Assembly: GCA_015062525.1 (NCBI GenBank)
Contig: SUUM01000003.1
Span: 88,012 to 152,011, forward strand
Origin: Alphaproteobacteria bacterium
Lineage (GTDB): Bacteria; Pseudomonadota; Alphaproteobacteria; Rs-D84
DNA: 64,000 nucleotides
Reading direction: 5' to 3'
The position numbers and the translations under genes were made by a program. Numbering within the stretch: position 1 is the first letter of the stretch; each line of letters begins with the position of its first letter. The notes below the pieces were generated by a model. The model had not been told where the DNA came from and ran no database searches. It saw only the letters and a list, made by a program, of their open reading frames with translations. This document shows positions 15,062-43,086 of the stretch, one piece after another.

Positions 15062-15256
15062 TTATTTCCCGGCTTTTCCCGGCTTTTTTGACGTGTTTTC
15101 ATCATGGTCGAACCAAGGTTCGCTTTCTTGCAATATTTCAATCGCCTGAGTCAGTTCGGCATGACATCTTTGTAATTGGAAAAATATGCGTGCCAGATAT
15201 CCTGTTGTCATGGACAGCGGTCTGTCTGATTCTGGCTTGTATGGCGTCAGTCCCAT
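15062..15256 (-). CDS. Small 64-residue protein of unknown function behind a structured leader
   Basis: The frame MGLTPYKPESDRPLSMTTGYLARIFF... ends in a hydrophilic tail SKKPGKAGK. The middle is an amphipathic helix (LQRCHAELTQAIEILQ). The start has a good AGGGGAAT upstream, while the longer frame from 15448 runs through a structured RNA and is rejected. It sits about 25 nt after an intrinsic terminator that ends the leader at 15283-15454, so it should be expressed only by read-through. No family recognised; small size lowers confidence. Confidence 0.55.
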   Translation of the reverse strand: MGLTPYKPESDRPLSMTTGYLARIFFQLQRCHAELTQAIEILQESEPWFDHDENTSKKPGKAGK

Positions 15257-15282: not shown

Positions 15283-15454
15283 AAAAAAAAGACCACATTT
15301 GTAAAGTGGTCGGGACGTTCAACGATTGCAAACACAAACTCCATTGCCTTTGGCATAGCCTATTGTATAACAACGGCGTCCCGACCTGTCGGTCAGGACA
15401 ATTGATAGACTGGTGTTTGCAGGGCGTTGAAACCCTTTCCGCTAACAAATGTCT
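15283..15454 (-). promoter_or_regulatory. Structured 5' leader 1 with pseudoknot and terminator/antiterminator switch
   Basis: Minus strand, in 5'-3' order: stem AGGG/CCCT (15433-15436 with 15421-15424) closes an 8-nt loop TTTCAACG, which pairs with CGTTGAA (15318-15324). The next segment GCAAACAC (15413-15420) pairs with GTGTTTGC (15328-15335). Segment 1 GTCCTGACC (15391-15399) pairs with segment 2 GGTCGGGACG (15377-15386). Segment 2 also pairs fully with segment 3 CGTCCCGACC (15308-15317). Segment 3 overlaps the 5' arm of terminator GACCAC/GTGGTC (15306-15311 with 15291-15296), followed by eight T. A -10 TATAAT is at 15462-15467. The design is shared with 19991-20132 and 38456-38690. Confidence 0.75.
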
Positions 15455-15559
15455 GACTTTTATTATAACTTGTGTGTGGAAAAAATCCAGGATTTTAATT
15501 GAAAATTAACAATTTTTTTAGTAGCCTGAACATATCAATAAGAATATGGGGAATTGAAC

Positions 15560-19723: not shown

Positions 19724-19747
19724 AATCCCCCAGATGGGGGATTTTTA
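19724..19747 (-). terminator. Terminator of the XRE-like gene
   Basis: CCCCC (19727-19731), AGAT, GGGGG (19736-19740) with A-run on plus, so T-run on minus. Confidence 0.8.
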
Positions 19748-19963
19748 TTTGCGTCGTTTGCATAAAATCATTGCCATACCATTCGTCATAACTTTTTGAA
19801 TTATTTTGTCGGGCATTAAAACCCGACCATTTTCTATCTTTATCAATTCAGAATGTGATACACCCAACAATTTTGCACATTCAAAGCGCGTGATATTCAT
19901 TGAATTTCGCGCCATGCGCAGATAATTACCAAAATATTTTGCATCAACCAATACAGTTGCCAT
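19745..19963 (-). CDS. Small XRE-family helix-turn-helix protein
   Basis: The 72-residue protein is almost entirely a Cro/C1-type HTH: FGNYLRMARNSMNITRFECAKLLGVSHSELIKIENGR, with the GVSHSELIKIENG recognition part typical of XRE. The chosen start has a strong AAGGGAGG; 14 extra in-frame residues up to 20005 would enter the leader terminator. Expression is likely governed by the structured leader at 19991-20132. A partner gene (toxin or phage) is not seen; the neighbour is a DUF559 nuclease on the other strand. Confidence 0.8.
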   Translation of the reverse strand: MATVLVDAKYFGNYLRMARNSMNITRFECAKLLGVSHSELIKIENGRVLMPDKIIQKVMTNGMAMILCKRRK

Positions 19964-19990: not shown

Positions 19991-20132
19991 TAAAAAACCG
20001 CACACTTAAGGCGGTTGGAGGTTCAAAGCTATTAAGAGTAATAGTGTGCTTATTCAATATATTCACATCCCTCCAACCATGGTTGGAGTATCCCTTACGA
20101 GGCTTTGAACCCTCACACCGGTTTCCCAATGC
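19991..20132 (-). promoter_or_regulatory. Structured 5' leader 2 with pseudoknot and terminator/antiterminator switch
   Basis: Minus strand, in 5'-3' order: stem GAGG/CCTC (20111-20114 with 20099-20102) closes the 8-nt loop GTTCAAAG, fully complementary to CTTTGAAC (20021-20028). TAAGGG (20092-20097) pairs with CTCTTA (20033-20038, one G-U). Segment 1 CTCCAACC (20081-20088) pairs with segment 2 GGTTGGAG (20071-20078). Segment 2 also pairs with segment 3 CCTCCAACC (20013-20021), which overlaps the terminator arm ACCGC (20011-20015) pairing with GCGGT (19997-20001), then TTTTTT. It is the most compact of the three related leaders. Confidence 0.8.
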
Positions 20133-20138
20133 CCACAT

Positions 20139-20167
20139 ATTATAACCAAATTTTTTTACATATTCAA
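20139..20167 (-). promoter_or_regulatory. Promoter of leader 2 / XRE gene
   Basis: On minus: TTGAAT (20162-20167), 17-bp spacer, TATAAT (20139-20144). Predicted start near 20132. Confidence 0.75.
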
Positions 20168-20236
20168 TTACTTCGCTAAATAAAAGTTTAGTTAAGATAT
20201 TAATTTTTAGAAATTAAACACCATTACCTGCCCCCG
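20168..20236. repeat. Left ~69-bp inverted repeat of the DUF559 unit
   Basis: Reads TTACTTCGCTAAATAAAAGT and on to CACCATTACCTGCCCCCG. Its reverse complement is found at 20790-20858 with about six mismatches. Confidence 0.8.
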
Positions 20237-34840: not shown

Positions 34841-34867
34841 ATAAACAGAATTTTTGTAAAAAAATTC

Positions 34868-34972
34868 TGTCATCCCGGTGCTTGACACCGGGACCCAGGT
34901 GATGAAAGCCTTATTGTTTGTGCGCATTTTATGCGCATAACCTGGGTTCCGTGGTCAAGCGTCAGAATGACA
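34868..34972. repeat. 105-bp MITE-like element R3, copy 1
   Basis: Ends are inverted: TGTCATCCCGGTGCTTGACA... at the left and ...GTCAAGCGTCAGAATGACA at the right, about 33 bp each. A second copy of identical length is at 42937-43041. Confidence 0.8.
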
Positions 34973-34985
34973 ATGTTTTTAATTT

Positions 34986-35351
34986 TTATTTTTGTTTGTT
35001 TTGCATTTCGATTTGTATTTGCAGCATGCGACCCTTTAATTCTTTTTCATATACACGTATGTTGTTTAAAAAATTTTGTGATTCTTGCGACAGTTTTAGA
35101 ATATTCTCAAGCGTAATTTTCAACACGGGATATTTAGCCAGACCAGAATTATACAATTCCATATTGATACCGTGTCGCTTAAAAATTTCCTGACAAATTG
35201 CCGTATATTTTTCCGATTGTGCAATACAATAAATGCAATGTGTTCCATTTCGGTCGGTGACATCAGGGGTATCTTGTAATAATTTTTTTAACAACTCAAC
35301 ATCCAATTTGTCGATGCCTGCGTTATATGAATTTATTTTAAAATGTCCCAT
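34986..35351 (-). CDS. Uncharacterised 121-residue protein, third gene of secreted-protein operon
   Basis: The protein (MGHFKINSYNAGIDKLDVEL...) is hydrophilic, without signal peptide or membrane span, with Cys residues in THCIYCIAQSEKYTAICQ and a C-terminal helical, possibly coiled-coil part (LKLSQESQNFLNNIRVYEKELKGRM in part). AAAGGAG precedes the start. It lies 17 bp after the 724-residue secreted protein, so it is probably co-transcribed from the leader at 38690. No family recognised. Confidence 0.65.
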   Translation of the reverse strand: MGHFKINSYNAGIDKLDVELLKKLLQDTPDVTDRNGTHCIYCIAQSEKYTAICQEIFKRHGINMELYNSGLAKYPVLKITLENILKLSQESQNFLNNIRVYEKELKGRMLQIQIEMQNKQK

Positions 35352-35368: not shown

Positions 35369-37543
35369 TTATTGCATTCCGACCGTAAATTCATCGGCCC
35401 AGTCCGCAACGGTTTGACCGCCAACAGAACACTTGACATCGTCAAACCCTTTTTTTATTTGATTTTTTTTTACAATTTTGTTGGACAGCAATCCACCAAC
35501 AGTTCCCAATACAACGCCTGCGGTTGCATCTGATGCCAAACGCGCGGTGTTGAATTTACCATCCTGGTTTTTCCATACACTAACATCTGCGCCCGTCGCA
35601 AACGCGTTTAACACAGACATAGCGGATGTTATTTTGTCTGTTGCGATGCGTCGTTTAGCTTCTAAATCGATACGTGCATTTACACGTTCAAATTTGGGGT
35701 CAACATATTGTGCAATCAGACCTGCCACTTCTGCACGTTGACCGTCGCTAAGTTTTTTTGTGTATTCATCCAGAATCTCGTATAACTGCCGGGTTTGACC
35801 ATCGGAAAAAGTTTGTGTGTATTGTCCAATTAACTCAATAACCTGTTTGGCATTAACCTTGGTACGAACTTGTGCCGCCAGACTTGTATATTTTCCACCC
35901 AATTCTTCGATTTGACGTGCAGTTTCTTGTATCAATTGTTTTTGCGCCGCTAATTCCATGGCAAGTATACCAATACTGCCCGTTATTACCGTCAGTTTTG
36001 CGTCATATTGACTTATCATAGCCTGTACTTGACGACATTGGGTATCACTCAGTTCTGCGTCCTTTAACGCCTGATTTACAATTTCCGCCACCTGTTCTTG
36101 GGTTGTGCATTGTGCAATACGTTTTTCCAAATTGCTCAATCTGTGTCTGTTTATTTGCAATGCCTGAACCCCGCTTACAATTTCAGTTGTGAAATGTTTG
36201 GCAAAATCAGTCGCATTATTCATGGCTGTGGTGGCGACATCCCCAGCCACTTGTATGACCATGCCAACCGTGTTCGCGGCAGATGTAATCACCGTCCTGA
36301 CGTTTTCATCAAAACTGTCCAATCTGTTTCCAAAAAATTGTAATGTTGATTTGTATGCATCTGTCATATTTTGGGATATGCTTTTTATAACATCGCCCCA
36401 AATATTTAGAATCTGAACTGTACCATCCTGAGCGATTTTTAATGCACCCAGTAAAGTTTTACCTGCGCTATCAAATATTCGCACTGTGCCATCTGTCATT
36501 GTCTGCAACGTTCCGACAAATGTTTTTCCCGCCGAATCTATAATGGACACAGTCCCGTTTGCCATTATTCTGAATCGTTCGGTTATATTGTCTGAAAAGT
36601 TCACAATAATTTCTGTTCCGCCATTTATACCTGCGACAGTTACATCGCGAACGTCGCCTGATACGGCACGTATGGTTTTTCCGGCCTCTGTAAATCCTGT
36701 TTTAATAAAATCTAGTGTGGCTATATAACCCCGGGTTGTGTTGTCGGATAAGGTTTGTAATACGCGCCCGCCAATACCAAGAACCTGAACTGTTCCATCT
36801 TTGGCAATTTTAAGCGCGCCAACGAATGTTTTTCCCGCACTGTCAAATATTCGCACTGTGCCATCTGTCATTGTCTGCAACGTTCCGACAAATGTTTTTC
36901 CCGCCGAATCTACAATGGACACAGTCCCATCTTTCATTATTCTGAAACGTTCTGTTATGTTGTCTGAAAAATTCACAATAATTTCCACACCACCATTTAT
37001 GGTGCTACTGGTCGCAGACCGAAAGTTTTTTCCAGATTCAGATAAAAACGTATTGGCGGTATCCCAAAAATTTGTTTTTTGGTTCACCGTAACGTTATTT
37101 GCAGTTGTAATATTTTTACAGTACTGGTTACCCACACGATACAAATCGGCACCCCCATCAACATCTGCCGCATGTGCGCCCATCAAAATGGATTCAACAA
37201 CGCATTTTTCCTGGATGTTATGCTGTACCCAACGATAACTTGTTCGACCACTGTCGCTGGTATTTATACACTCGTACACCGCATCATTTTGGATTCCTGC
37301 ATTACCAACAGCCGCATTTCGCAGGCGCTTTTTTGTGCCGGTCGTACAAAAGCCCGCGCCACACAGGTATGCATAACCTGGCTTGCCTTCGTTGCGCAGT
37401 TCACGCTGTTGTGTATCAGCGTACAGATAATCATCATATCCCGCATCACCACCGGATTTTAGCATGTCCGTGGTCAGTTCGCACCCCGCCAATGCAGTAT
37501 TTGCAATTAATAATAACAAAACAGAACAACTAATCTTTTTCAT
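35369..37543 (-). CDS. Large secreted repeat and coiled-coil protein of unknown function
   Basis: The 724-residue precursor has a signal peptide (MKKISCSVLLLLIANTALA-GCE). A Cys-containing N-terminal domain (AYLCGAGFCTTGTKKRLR) is followed by two near-identical copies of about 77 residues, starting ING-G-EIIVNFSDNITERFRI, spaced 124 residues apart. Inside each copy the unit DGTV-I-DSAGKTFVG recurs. Residues about 450-640 look coiled-coil, and the end has a glycine-rich segment (AGVVLGTVGGLLSN). The composition suggests a surface or periplasmic fibre-like protein. Middle gene of a three-gene operon. Confidence 0.7.
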   Translation of the reverse strand: MKKISCSVLLLLIANTALAGCELTTDMLKSGGDAGYDDYLYADTQQRELRNEGKPGYAYLCGAGFCTTGTKKRLRNAAVGNAGIQNDAVYECINTSDSGRTSYRWVQHNIQEKCVVESILMGAHAADVDGGADLYRVGNQYCKNITTANNVTVNQKTNFWDTANTFLSESGKNFRSATSSTINGGVEIIVNFSDNITERFRIMKDGTVSIVDSAGKTFVGTLQTMTDGTVRIFDSAGKTFVGALKIAKDGTVQVLGIGGRVLQTLSDNTTRGYIATLDFIKTGFTEAGKTIRAVSGDVRDVTVAGINGGTEIIVNFSDNITERFRIMANGTVSIIDSAGKTFVGTLQTMTDGTVRIFDSAGKTLLGALKIAQDGTVQILNIWGDVIKSISQNMTDAYKSTLQFFGNRLDSFDENVRTVITSAANTVGMVIQVAGDVATTAMNNATDFAKHFTTEIVSGVQALQINRHRLSNLEKRIAQCTTQEQVAEIVNQALKDAELSDTQCRQVQAMISQYDAKLTVITGSIGILAMELAAQKQLIQETARQIEELGGKYTSLAAQVRTKVNAKQVIELIGQYTQTFSDGQTRQLYEILDEYTKKLSDGQRAEVAGLIAQYVDPKFERVNARIDLEAKRRIATDKITSAMSVLNAFATGADVSVWKNQDGKFNTARLASDATAGVVLGTVGGLLSNKIVKKNQIKKGFDDVKCSVGGQTVADWADEFTVGMQ

Positions 37544-37562: not shown

Positions 37563-38441
37563 CTATTTCAACATATTACGCAAACCGACAAATGGGTTTG
37601 TGTCTGGATTACAATCTTGTGGACGGTCAGAATCAGTGTTCCACAACGATTTGTCATTACACACGTTTTCCAAATCGTCCAATGCATTTATAATTCTGTT
37701 GTACTCGGATTGATTGTTTTTTTTTAATGCCAACACTTGCGAACGCAACAATTCCTGACCTTCCAAAGCCTTTTGTCCCATAACTTTACCGCCAATCAAT
37801 TTGTTGCCAAACAATTCCATGGTGCCCACCCCGACCGCTGCGCTACCAACGGCGCCACCAACAGTTGCCCATGTGCGCCCACTTTTTTTAGCGTCCAATA
37901 TGCGTTTTTCTAACATTTTTTCATCAACCCACGAGCCGCAAGTAATATTTTGTCCCATTTCAAAATATTTACTGCCTATATCAGAAACATCTATTCTGGG
38001 GTCATAACTGCTTATATCAACACGAACAAAACAGGTATTGTTTTTTTGATTTTCTAAATCTTCGGTCATATAGGTATAGTTTGAAATATTGCTGTCGCGT
38101 GCAGCCCACACAAACGTATTTCCAATGCCAATATTATTAGATAAACATACATTGCGATATTTCATTATCTGTTCCAGCTCTGGGTCGGGTGCCTCTGCGA
38201 TTGGGGTACTGGCAATTGGTTTAATTGATTCTGATGGCGTATTGATATCAATGTTTGGGTTTTGATTTTGTTGCGCTTGTGTTATTGGTGCCCCAATCAA
38301 GGTCTTTTGCGCGGTCCCACGATGTGTGTTTGTATATTCACCAGATGCATTAACGACATTTCGACCTGCGCGCCCAGTGGGTGTGCCAATCGCACTAGAT
38401 GTCAAAGATAACACAATAACAAGACCGCAAATTTGCTTCAT
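37563..38441 (-). CDS. Secreted protein with glycine-zipper segment, paralogue of 21975-22853
   Basis: The 292-residue precursor has a signal peptide (MKQICGLVIVLSLTSSAIG) and a Thr/Asn/Pro-rich linker to about residue 85. The conserved domain follows: CLSNNIGIGNTFVWAARDSN, NNTCFVRVDISSYDPRIDVS, KYFEMGQNITCGSWVD and TWATVGGAVGSAAVGVGTME. Blocks and Cys match the 21975 protein. It is the first gene of the operon behind the structured leader 38456-38690; AGAGGGAAAAAA precedes the start. Family unknown. Confidence 0.75.
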   Translation of the reverse strand: MKQICGLVIVLSLTSSAIGTPTGRAGRNVVNASGEYTNTHRGTAQKTLIGAPITQAQQNQNPNIDINTPSESIKPIASTPIAEAPDPELEQIMKYRNVCLSNNIGIGNTFVWAARDSNISNYTYMTEDLENQKNNTCFVRVDISSYDPRIDVSDIGSKYFEMGQNITCGSWVDEKMLEKRILDAKKSGRTWATVGGAVGSAAVGVGTMELFGNKLIGGKVMGQKALEGQELLRSQVLALKKNNQSEYNRIINALDDLENVCNDKSLWNTDSDRPQDCNPDTNPFVGLRNMLK

Positions 38442-38455
38442 TTTTTTCCCTCTAA

Positions 38456-38690
38456 AACAAAAACCACCATGGAATCTGGTGGTCGGGGAGTTAGCAAATC
38501 GTCTTATCGTTGATTCTGTCGCTTTCGGGTTACACCCTGTTGTATCACAGACAGCCCCCCGACTGCTTATCAGTCAGGGACAAATAACGATGCAAAAACC
38601 ACAGGAACGTTATCGGATTAACGATACATTATTTTCGCACCGGATAAGACAGGCTTGCTACAGCCCCGAACCCAATTCCCATCAGGTTCA
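38456..38690 (-). promoter_or_regulatory. Structured 5' leader 3 with pseudoknot and terminator/antiterminator switch
   Basis: Minus strand, in 5'-3' order: stem GGGC/GCCT closes an 8-nt loop TGTAGCAA (within 38651-38666), whose TAGCAA pairs with TTGCTA (38492-38497). GTCTTATC (38643-38650) pairs with GATAAGAC (38501-38508), 8 bp. Segment 1 CCCTGACTG (38571-38579) pairs with segment 2 CAGTCGGGG (38557-38565), which also pairs with segment 3 CCCCGAC (38482-38488). Segment 3 adjoins the terminator TGGTGGT/ACCACCA (38463-38469 with 38477-38483), then TTTTTG. About 60 nt longer than leader 1. A -10-like TATGAT or TAAAAT lies at 38696-38706. Confidence 0.72.
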
Positions 38691-38743
38691 AGCAAATTTT
38701 ATCATAAAACAGGTCAGGAATACAAGTCTTTTCAATAAAACAC

Positions 38744-42667: not shown

Positions 42668-42936
42668 GTGGGTGGAAAAATTAAAAACTACCGTCATACC
42701 GGCGCAGGCCGGTATCCATTGTGTTCTACGAACTTTATTATTTGCGCTATGAAACATTAGCCCCCGGCCTAGTATCACCCACAAAAATTTTCAATTTTTG
42801 CGGGACCCGAAATCGGGGTGACGGCTTTTCTTTTAGAAATTAAAAACCTTTGTCATTACCGCGCAGGCGGTAATAGGGACCACAAACCGCGCACAACGTG
42901 CGCCAAACTTAAACAGAATTTTTTTACAAAAAATTC

Positions 42937-43041
42937 TGTCATCCCGGTGCTTGACACCGGGACCCAGGTAATAGAATCCTTATTATTTGTGCGCGCTTTG
43001 CGCGCATAACCTAGGTTCCGGGGTCAAGCCCCGGAATGACA
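42937..43041. repeat. 105-bp MITE-like element R3, copy 2
   Basis: Terminal inverted repeats TGTCATCCCGGTGCTTGACA... and ...GTCAAGCCCCGGAATGACA. The interior TTATTATTTGTGCGCGCTTT matches copy 1 (34868-34972). Preceded, like copy 1, by an AGAATTTTT/AAAAATTCT hairpin. Confidence 0.8.
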
Positions 43042-43086
43042 AAAGTTTTTAATTTTTCCACCCGCTGATGACTGATGACCGATGCC

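Follow-up and report, generated by a model that had tools for sequence, protein, structure and literature searches.

A multi-copy family of candidate transcription attenuators in leaders of Rs-D84 Alphaproteobacteria

Three related leaders in a 64-kb region

The window (the whole 64,000-nucleotide stretch analysed here, part of a 992-kb genome in 15 contigs) contains three leaders, L1, L2 and L3, which together with their genes are on the minus strand. L2 (19985–20132, from hairpin P1 to the T-run of the terminator) lies 5′ of a small ORF (19745–19963) coding for a 72-aa HTH-like protein (Pfam HTH_3, E 4.4e-5, above the cut-off). A TATAAT -10 box at 20139–20144 is followed by hairpin P1 (20115–20132, GCATTGG-GAAA-CCGGTGT) and hairpin P2 (20099–20114), with the stem GAGG/CCTC and a loop segment b, GTTCAAAG, at 20103–20110. 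Next are segment c (TAAGGG, 20092–20097), segment 1 (CTCCAACC, 20081–20088), which pairs with segment 2, and segment 2 itself (GGTTGGAGG, 20070–20078), for which either 1 or 3 can be the partner. Hairpin P5 (20045–20067) has the conserved loop AATATATTGAATAA, and hairpin P6 (20029–20044, CTATTA..TAATAG) holds c′ within its loop and is an alternative to c:c′. The 3′ end consists of b′ (CTTTGAAC, 20021–20028), segment 3 (CTCCAACC, 20013–20020), which either pairs with 2 or forms the 5′ start of the terminator, and segment 4 (GCGGTTTTTT, 19992–20001); the intrinsic terminator (AACCGC..GCGGTT and T6) spans 19992–20018. A Shine-Dalgarno (SD) sequence and then the ATG at 19961–19963 are found downstream.

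L1 extends from its -10 box to its T-run at 15283–15467, with b at 15425–15432, c at 15413–15420, 1 at 15391–15399, 2 at 15378–15386, P5 at 15341–15377, c′ at 15328–15335, b′ at 15318–15324, 3 at 15308–15317 and 4 at 15283–15294; a clear P1 was not found within 15283–15454. A 64-aa ORF with no assigned family (15062–15256) lies 3′ of it. L3 occupies 38456–38706 from -10 box to T-run, with P1 at 38668–38689, b at 38655–38661, c at 38643–38650, 1 at 38571–38579, 2 at 38557–38565, P5 at 38516–38554, c′ at 38501–38508, b′ at 38492–38498, 3 at 38481–38488 and 4 at 38458–38468. It is followed by genes for a 292-aa protein (37563–38441) and a 724-aa protein (35369–37543), both with signal-peptide-like N-termini and no Pfam family, and these two genes are possibly in the same operon. 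Each of the three leaders folds much better than its dinucleotide shuffles, with z values of -4.9, -6.7 and -6.2.

All of the segments that the original prediction assigned to the three leaders are present in their assigned places. It did not include hairpins P1 and P3, nor P5, whose A/U-rich loop is conserved, nor P6, which carries c′ in the loop. The GGAA-nn-GG string that it listed as a common feature sits in the variable apical part of P1 and is not found family-wide.

Family members and their distribution

MAFFT misaligned mixtures of short and long copies, and covariance models were therefore made for each class. R1 was made from six copies, including L2, and holds no 2:3 pairs; R2 represents the 3′ half and is blind to the 5′ half; both recover short-class members. 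R3 was made from six long-class copies, none of them from the window. L2 matches R1 with 117 bits (E 1.3e-27, L2 being one of the six sequences in that model) and R2 with E 2.7e-18. With filters off, the top three R3 matches in the window are all on the minus strand and correspond to the three leaders (38478–38564, E 7e-8; 15305–15386, E 1.7e-5; 20010–20078, E 0.012), while the fourth-best has an E value of 0.58. This ranking by a model without window sequence agrees with the single shared architecture proposed earlier, and that the family is real is beyond reasonable doubt.

BLASTN with L2 finds related copies elsewhere in the window's genome. One of them is 95% identical to L2 and has b and b′ altered together, from GTTCAAAG/CTTTGAAC to TGTAAGAG/CTCTTAAC. 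The genome has 20 copies in total, 12 identified by R3 and eight others by R1 or R2. At the genus level there are matches in 33 of 35 genomes (counting the window's own), with 44 in the richest, G009, in which R2 detects 50 three-prime halves, half-copies included. Of the 190 genomes that represent the order, 168 have at least one match. When 289 genomes were sampled across the class, R2 matched 12 and R3 matched 15, among them several that belong to other orders; the non-matching members of this sample serve as a negative control. Named relatives are Candidatus Enterousia species and Alphaproteobacteria represented by gut, rumen and termite MAGs; Candidatus Enterousia falls within Rs-D84, an uncultured order, with genomes that are mostly below 1 Mb (PMC12306168). 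On the strength of these matches the window is placed in the same clade, as part of a Candidatus Enterousia-like genome.

Rfam 15 at the gathering cut-off identifies two tRNAs in the window and nothing over the leaders, relaxed thresholds give only chance-level scores there, and the same search over 20 related loci yields tRNAs only; as had been anticipated, none of its families, T-box and riboswitch classes included, corresponds to these leaders. A literature search, with most subscription papers outside its reach, found no such RNA. The family is apparently unreported, and its absence from Rfam 15 and from the literature searched supports novelty but is not proof of it.

Covariation and competing helices

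Three sequences are insufficient by themselves to establish covariation, but the family does so. In A5, an alignment of 105 distinct copies, standard pairs fill 95.9% of the pair cells, compared with 38–47% when the partners are slid by one to three columns, and both sides have changed in 35 of 37 helix pairs (964 cells versus 228 in shuffles); both controls, slid and shuffled, are important here because the model guided the alignment. Compensatory change in b:b′, c:c′, 1:2, 2:3 and 3:4 is borne out across the family, and the covariation among homologues on which the original prediction had staked its claim is strong. P1 also covaries in A5, A6 supports 2:3, P5 and P6, and one pair of the P6 hairpin, with c′ in its loop, is A-U in 19 copies and U-A in 14.

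The pairings are also specific to each copy within a genome. Every 5′ half was scored against every c′-b′, self and trans combinations being maximised in the same way, and the G009 copies were collected with R2, so that the 5′ halves played no part in finding them. For b/c against b′/c′, 38 of the 44 G009 copies score highest with their own 5′ half. Self-matches there average 34.3, compared with 16.4 (sd 1.3) for permuted sets, which never exceed 21.4 in 10,000 permutations. In the window's genome, where the segments were cut by hand, self-matches rank first in 12 of 13 copies, L1, L2 and L3 each being 1 of 13, and the observed mean was not attained in any of 20,000 permutations. The self score for 1:2 is 18.5 versus 14.2 (sd 0.5). 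For 2:3, mostly a helix of 9–11 consecutive pairs, it is 24.6 versus 22.3 (sd 0.2) with copies found using R1, and 24.7 versus 17.4 (sd 0.6) in G009. All three of the competing helices 1:2, 2:3 and 3:4 are supported. Two other scans for trans pairing were set aside, one using duplex energies over long regions, which was confounded by chance pairing, and another that was biased in that its windows had been picked with each copy's own b′.

Promoters, terminators and downstream genes

Pairs read on the sense strand include 226 G-U but only 21 A-C, an asymmetry pointing to the RNA and not its complement as the structured molecule. Of 101 copies, 93 have a TATAAT-like box (at least five of six positions) in the 24 nt leading up to P1, mostly 10–11 nt upstream of it; in a control stretch the figure is 30 of 101. 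Forty-one of the 44 G009 copies have a terminator, the 5′ arm of which mostly overlaps the end of segment 3 by 3–5 nt; the covarying helix 2:3 overlaps this arm and is an alternative that excludes the terminator. An ORF with SD and ATG begins 36–61 nt past the match in 35 of the 44 G009 copies, as opposed to 4% of random positions. The pair asymmetry, the TATAAT boxes and the position of the ORFs together argue that the element acts at the RNA level in 5′ leaders. The family, its helices, the promoter boxes, the terminators and the gene context are all evident in the sequences themselves.

Secreted and envelope proteins, glycosyltransferases and small HTH proteins make up most of the regulon. 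Signal peptides are predicted in 22 of 36 downstream proteins, compared with 21% of ORFs generally (p 3e-7, by a crude test with a background that holds spurious ORFs). Pfam domains among them include trypsin, PAP2, glycosyltransferase 8, beta-barrel, PLD and HTH, and many are cysteine-rich secreted proteins with no Pfam family. In the window's genome the targets on inspection include HTH-like small proteins, glycosyltransferase-like, PLD-like and lipoprotein-like proteins, and other proteins with signal peptides. Copies in other alphaproteobacterial lineages precede genes for pseudopilin-like, outer-membrane-like, HTH-like and BRO-N proteins (only BRO-N assigned by Pfam), and some of them have no T-run after segment 3, so the output there may differ. 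Overall, the leaders probably decide whether their genes, which code for surface and secreted proteins and for small regulators, are transcribed.

We note that some downstream ORFs in G009 (e.g. those after L235:15475 and L252:16169) code for a cysteine-rich secreted family with a motif resembling RCAAGYYG..GC..CP..G.S..G...CY.PAG; a Pfam scan of one member gave no match.

A model for default termination

The anatomy of the leaders provides good support for reading them as attenuators, and we favour, with a probability of roughly 0.6, an undescribed family of cis-acting transcription attenuators that would be off by default and opened by a putative trans-acting factor. Each leader would be transcribed from its own sigma-70-type promoter. 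P1 would form, followed by P2, and loop b of P2, generally preceded by one or two unpaired bases of the loop, would pair with the downstream b′ as an H-type pseudoknot; the sequences suggest a geometry in which the c:c′ domain is accommodated within the long loop of the pseudoknot formed with P2. In this closed fold, composed of b:b′, c:c′, 1:2 and P5, segment 3 would be free to start the terminator 3:4 and transcription would stop before the gene. Segments 1 and 3 are nearly the same sequence and so compete for 2. In the open fold 2 would pair with 3 over 9–11 bp, P6 would sequester c′, b′ would be free, the terminator would not form and the gene would be transcribed. We infer that the output is termination of transcription, and likewise infer its polarity, that a factor exists and where it would act.

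Predicted energies bear on the default state. Compared with a fold in which 2:3 is forced, and prior to terminator formation, the closed fold of the three window leaders is favoured by 6.3, 4.0 and 13.9 kcal/mol. It is also favoured in 41 of 43 G009 copies, the median over all 43 being 8.9 kcal/mol; these ViennaRNA energies ignore the pseudoknot and co-transcriptional kinetics. The naked RNA is thus predicted to favour the closed fold, from which termination would be the default, opposite to the original interpretation as an OFF switch. That interpretation had two parts, of which the cis-regulatory RNA family with an aptamer-like fold, a 2:3 antiterminator and a terminator is retained, and the ligand-stabilised OFF switch is not.

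A ligand-sensing OFF riboswitch, in which termination follows when the closed pseudoknotted fold is stabilised by a metabolite or ion and 2:3 antiterminates in the absence of that ligand, would account for the helices as predicted, and the pseudoknot and conserved P5 loop do look aptamer-like. However, nearly all of the G009 copies are predicted to have the closed fold as their minimum with no ligand, and the regulon has no metabolic theme that would suggest a metabolite, so we regard such a switch as unlikely; although both readings are interpretive, default termination appears to be the simpler. One specific signal, c-di-GMP, is unlikely in the window's clade, as a GGDEF domain was not found in G000, G009 or G022; it is present in G279, G407 and G361.

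For the favoured attenuator, the trans factor would most likely be a protein or small molecule that recognises the A/U-rich loop of P5 and either opens the closed fold or delays its closure. The P5 loop is the most conserved unpaired part of the RNA (short class, GAAUAUAUUGAAUAA; long class, UAUAYAACA with AAAAG; other lineages, AAAAUAAG with AAUAU) and is the best candidate for the factor site. It is paired identically in the closed and open folds, and binding there does not explain how a choice between the two would be made.

Arrays and half-copies

Departures from the single-leader arrangement are of two types. First, some loci carry between two and five complete copies in a head-to-tail array, spaced about 240 nt apart, in which the inner copies have their own -10 box and terminator and no ORF, only a relict SD. 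Among the array units b and c differ and assort independently, and P1, P4 and P5 are nearly unchanged. We note arrays at L111:3959–5064 (minus strand), L118:4200–4830, L122:3841–4469 and L103:377–765, and those that were read end at a small HTH-like ORF. Second, there are 3′ half-copies in arrays of G009 (L211 in contig C4 and L210 in C3) and G022 (L214 in C24). These have a -10 box immediately before segment 2 and no segment 1, such that only 2:3 is possible and c′-b′ is exposed. In L214, around G022:C24:15600–16100, the c′/b′ of one unit is complementary to the b/c of the next unit and not to its own. The G009 half-copies have no clear trans partner, their best trans scores being within the range of those for trans pairs of full copies. 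The array and half-copy patterns are most simply explained by recombination between copies; a plain attenuator needs neither gene-less array copies nor half-copies limited to 2:3, and these count against the explanation that we favour.

Two further proposals draw on these arrangements. One is that the elements are stand-alone small RNAs, in which transcripts stop at the terminator as non-coding products, acting in trans or titrating a protein, with the gene reached by read-through only. The tandem full copies with promoters and terminators of their own and no ORF between them, and the half-copies with a -10 box, fit such a role. However, the high proportion of G009 copies with a closely spaced ORF is contrary to it, as is the lack of a clear partner for the half-copies among the full copies, and it seems improbable. 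Hfq-dependent action is unlikely, since no match to Hfq was found in G000, G009 or G022. A more elaborate and quite speculative proposal, to which we give little weight, is an RNA network in which arrays and 3′ half-copies act in trans, sponging a shared factor or competing for the b/c of matching leaders, so that private b/c codes pick which of dozens of surface and secreted proteins a reduced-genome gut bacterium expresses.

Control of antitermination or attenuation by a ribosome on a leader peptide is very improbable: segment 2 resembles a Shine-Dalgarno sequence (GGAGG) and is followed in some copies by GTG or TTG, but on inspection the start codon and frame after it are not kept, many copies have no start codon, and P5 is a compensating stem (e.g. 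GTGTC/GACAC, GTTGC/GCAAC). A DNA-level element, either a recombination site or a palindromic repeat, would be multi-copy with tandem arrays and duplicated cassettes, as is seen here, but is scarcely credible given the excess of G-U over A-C pairs and the consistent orientation between an upstream promoter box and a downstream ORF.

Comparison with known regulatory RNAs

The proposed attenuator has partial parallels among established systems. T-box leaders are present in many copies per genome before different genes, and use mutually exclusive antiterminator and terminator helices with termination as the default. The new family is likewise multi-copy with exclusive helices, and default termination is predicted, but it has no Rfam match (the T-box model is RF00230), it does not precede genes for aminoacyl-tRNA synthetases or amino-acid genes, and no tRNA-binding feature was identified in a comparison made with the Rfam model. 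PyrR, BglG/LicT RAT and TRAP leaders are protein-controlled attenuators; in these as in the new leaders an alternative helix overlaps the terminator, and a protein could bind at the conserved internal loop. Unlike them, the new family is much larger and pseudoknotted, with 20–50 copies per 1-Mb genome, and no such regulator was identified. Cyclic-dinucleotide riboswitches control surface and secreted proteins in other bacteria and thus resemble the family in their targets, but there is no Rfam match and GGDEF was not found in the window's clade. SAM-II is an H-type pseudoknot riboswitch of Alphaproteobacteria in which a hairpin loop pairs with a downstream segment. The loop of a hairpin pairs downstream in the new family too, but here there is a multi-helix domain inside the pseudoknot, no match in Rfam and no association with methionine genes. 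Riboswitches of this kind can act by termination (PMC9373788).

With about 20–50 copies in genomes of about 1 Mb, the family would rank as a dominant system of gene regulation in an uncultured gut lineage, one that has no detectable Hfq or GGDEF signalling in the tested genomes G000, G009 and G022. It provides a testable handle on the control of surface and secreted proteins, and the putative factor is a clear experimental target.

Viral contigs and other repeats

Two IMG/VR contigs (L149 and L151) carry the same element, and the copy in a third precedes an ABC-transporter-like ORF. In L149 the leader adjoins a prophage-like tail gene cluster, with the tail genes upstream. A phage origin was considered and not adopted: the leader precedes an ORF with no Pfam match, and it may belong to either the phage or the host.

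A short dispersed repeat, CTAAACTTTTATTTA(G/T)CG..GTAA, is present in intergenic positions at several places (e.g. the window near 20170–20200, G000:C4 near 60390 and C15 near 62700), and one occurrence is immediately 5′ of the L2 promoter. Separately, positions 42918–43062 and 34849–34992 of the window resemble Wolbachia sRNA 46 on both strands at a score below the threshold (62.2 bits, with a cut-off of 65.3), and such palindromic repeats may be shared with Wolbachia.
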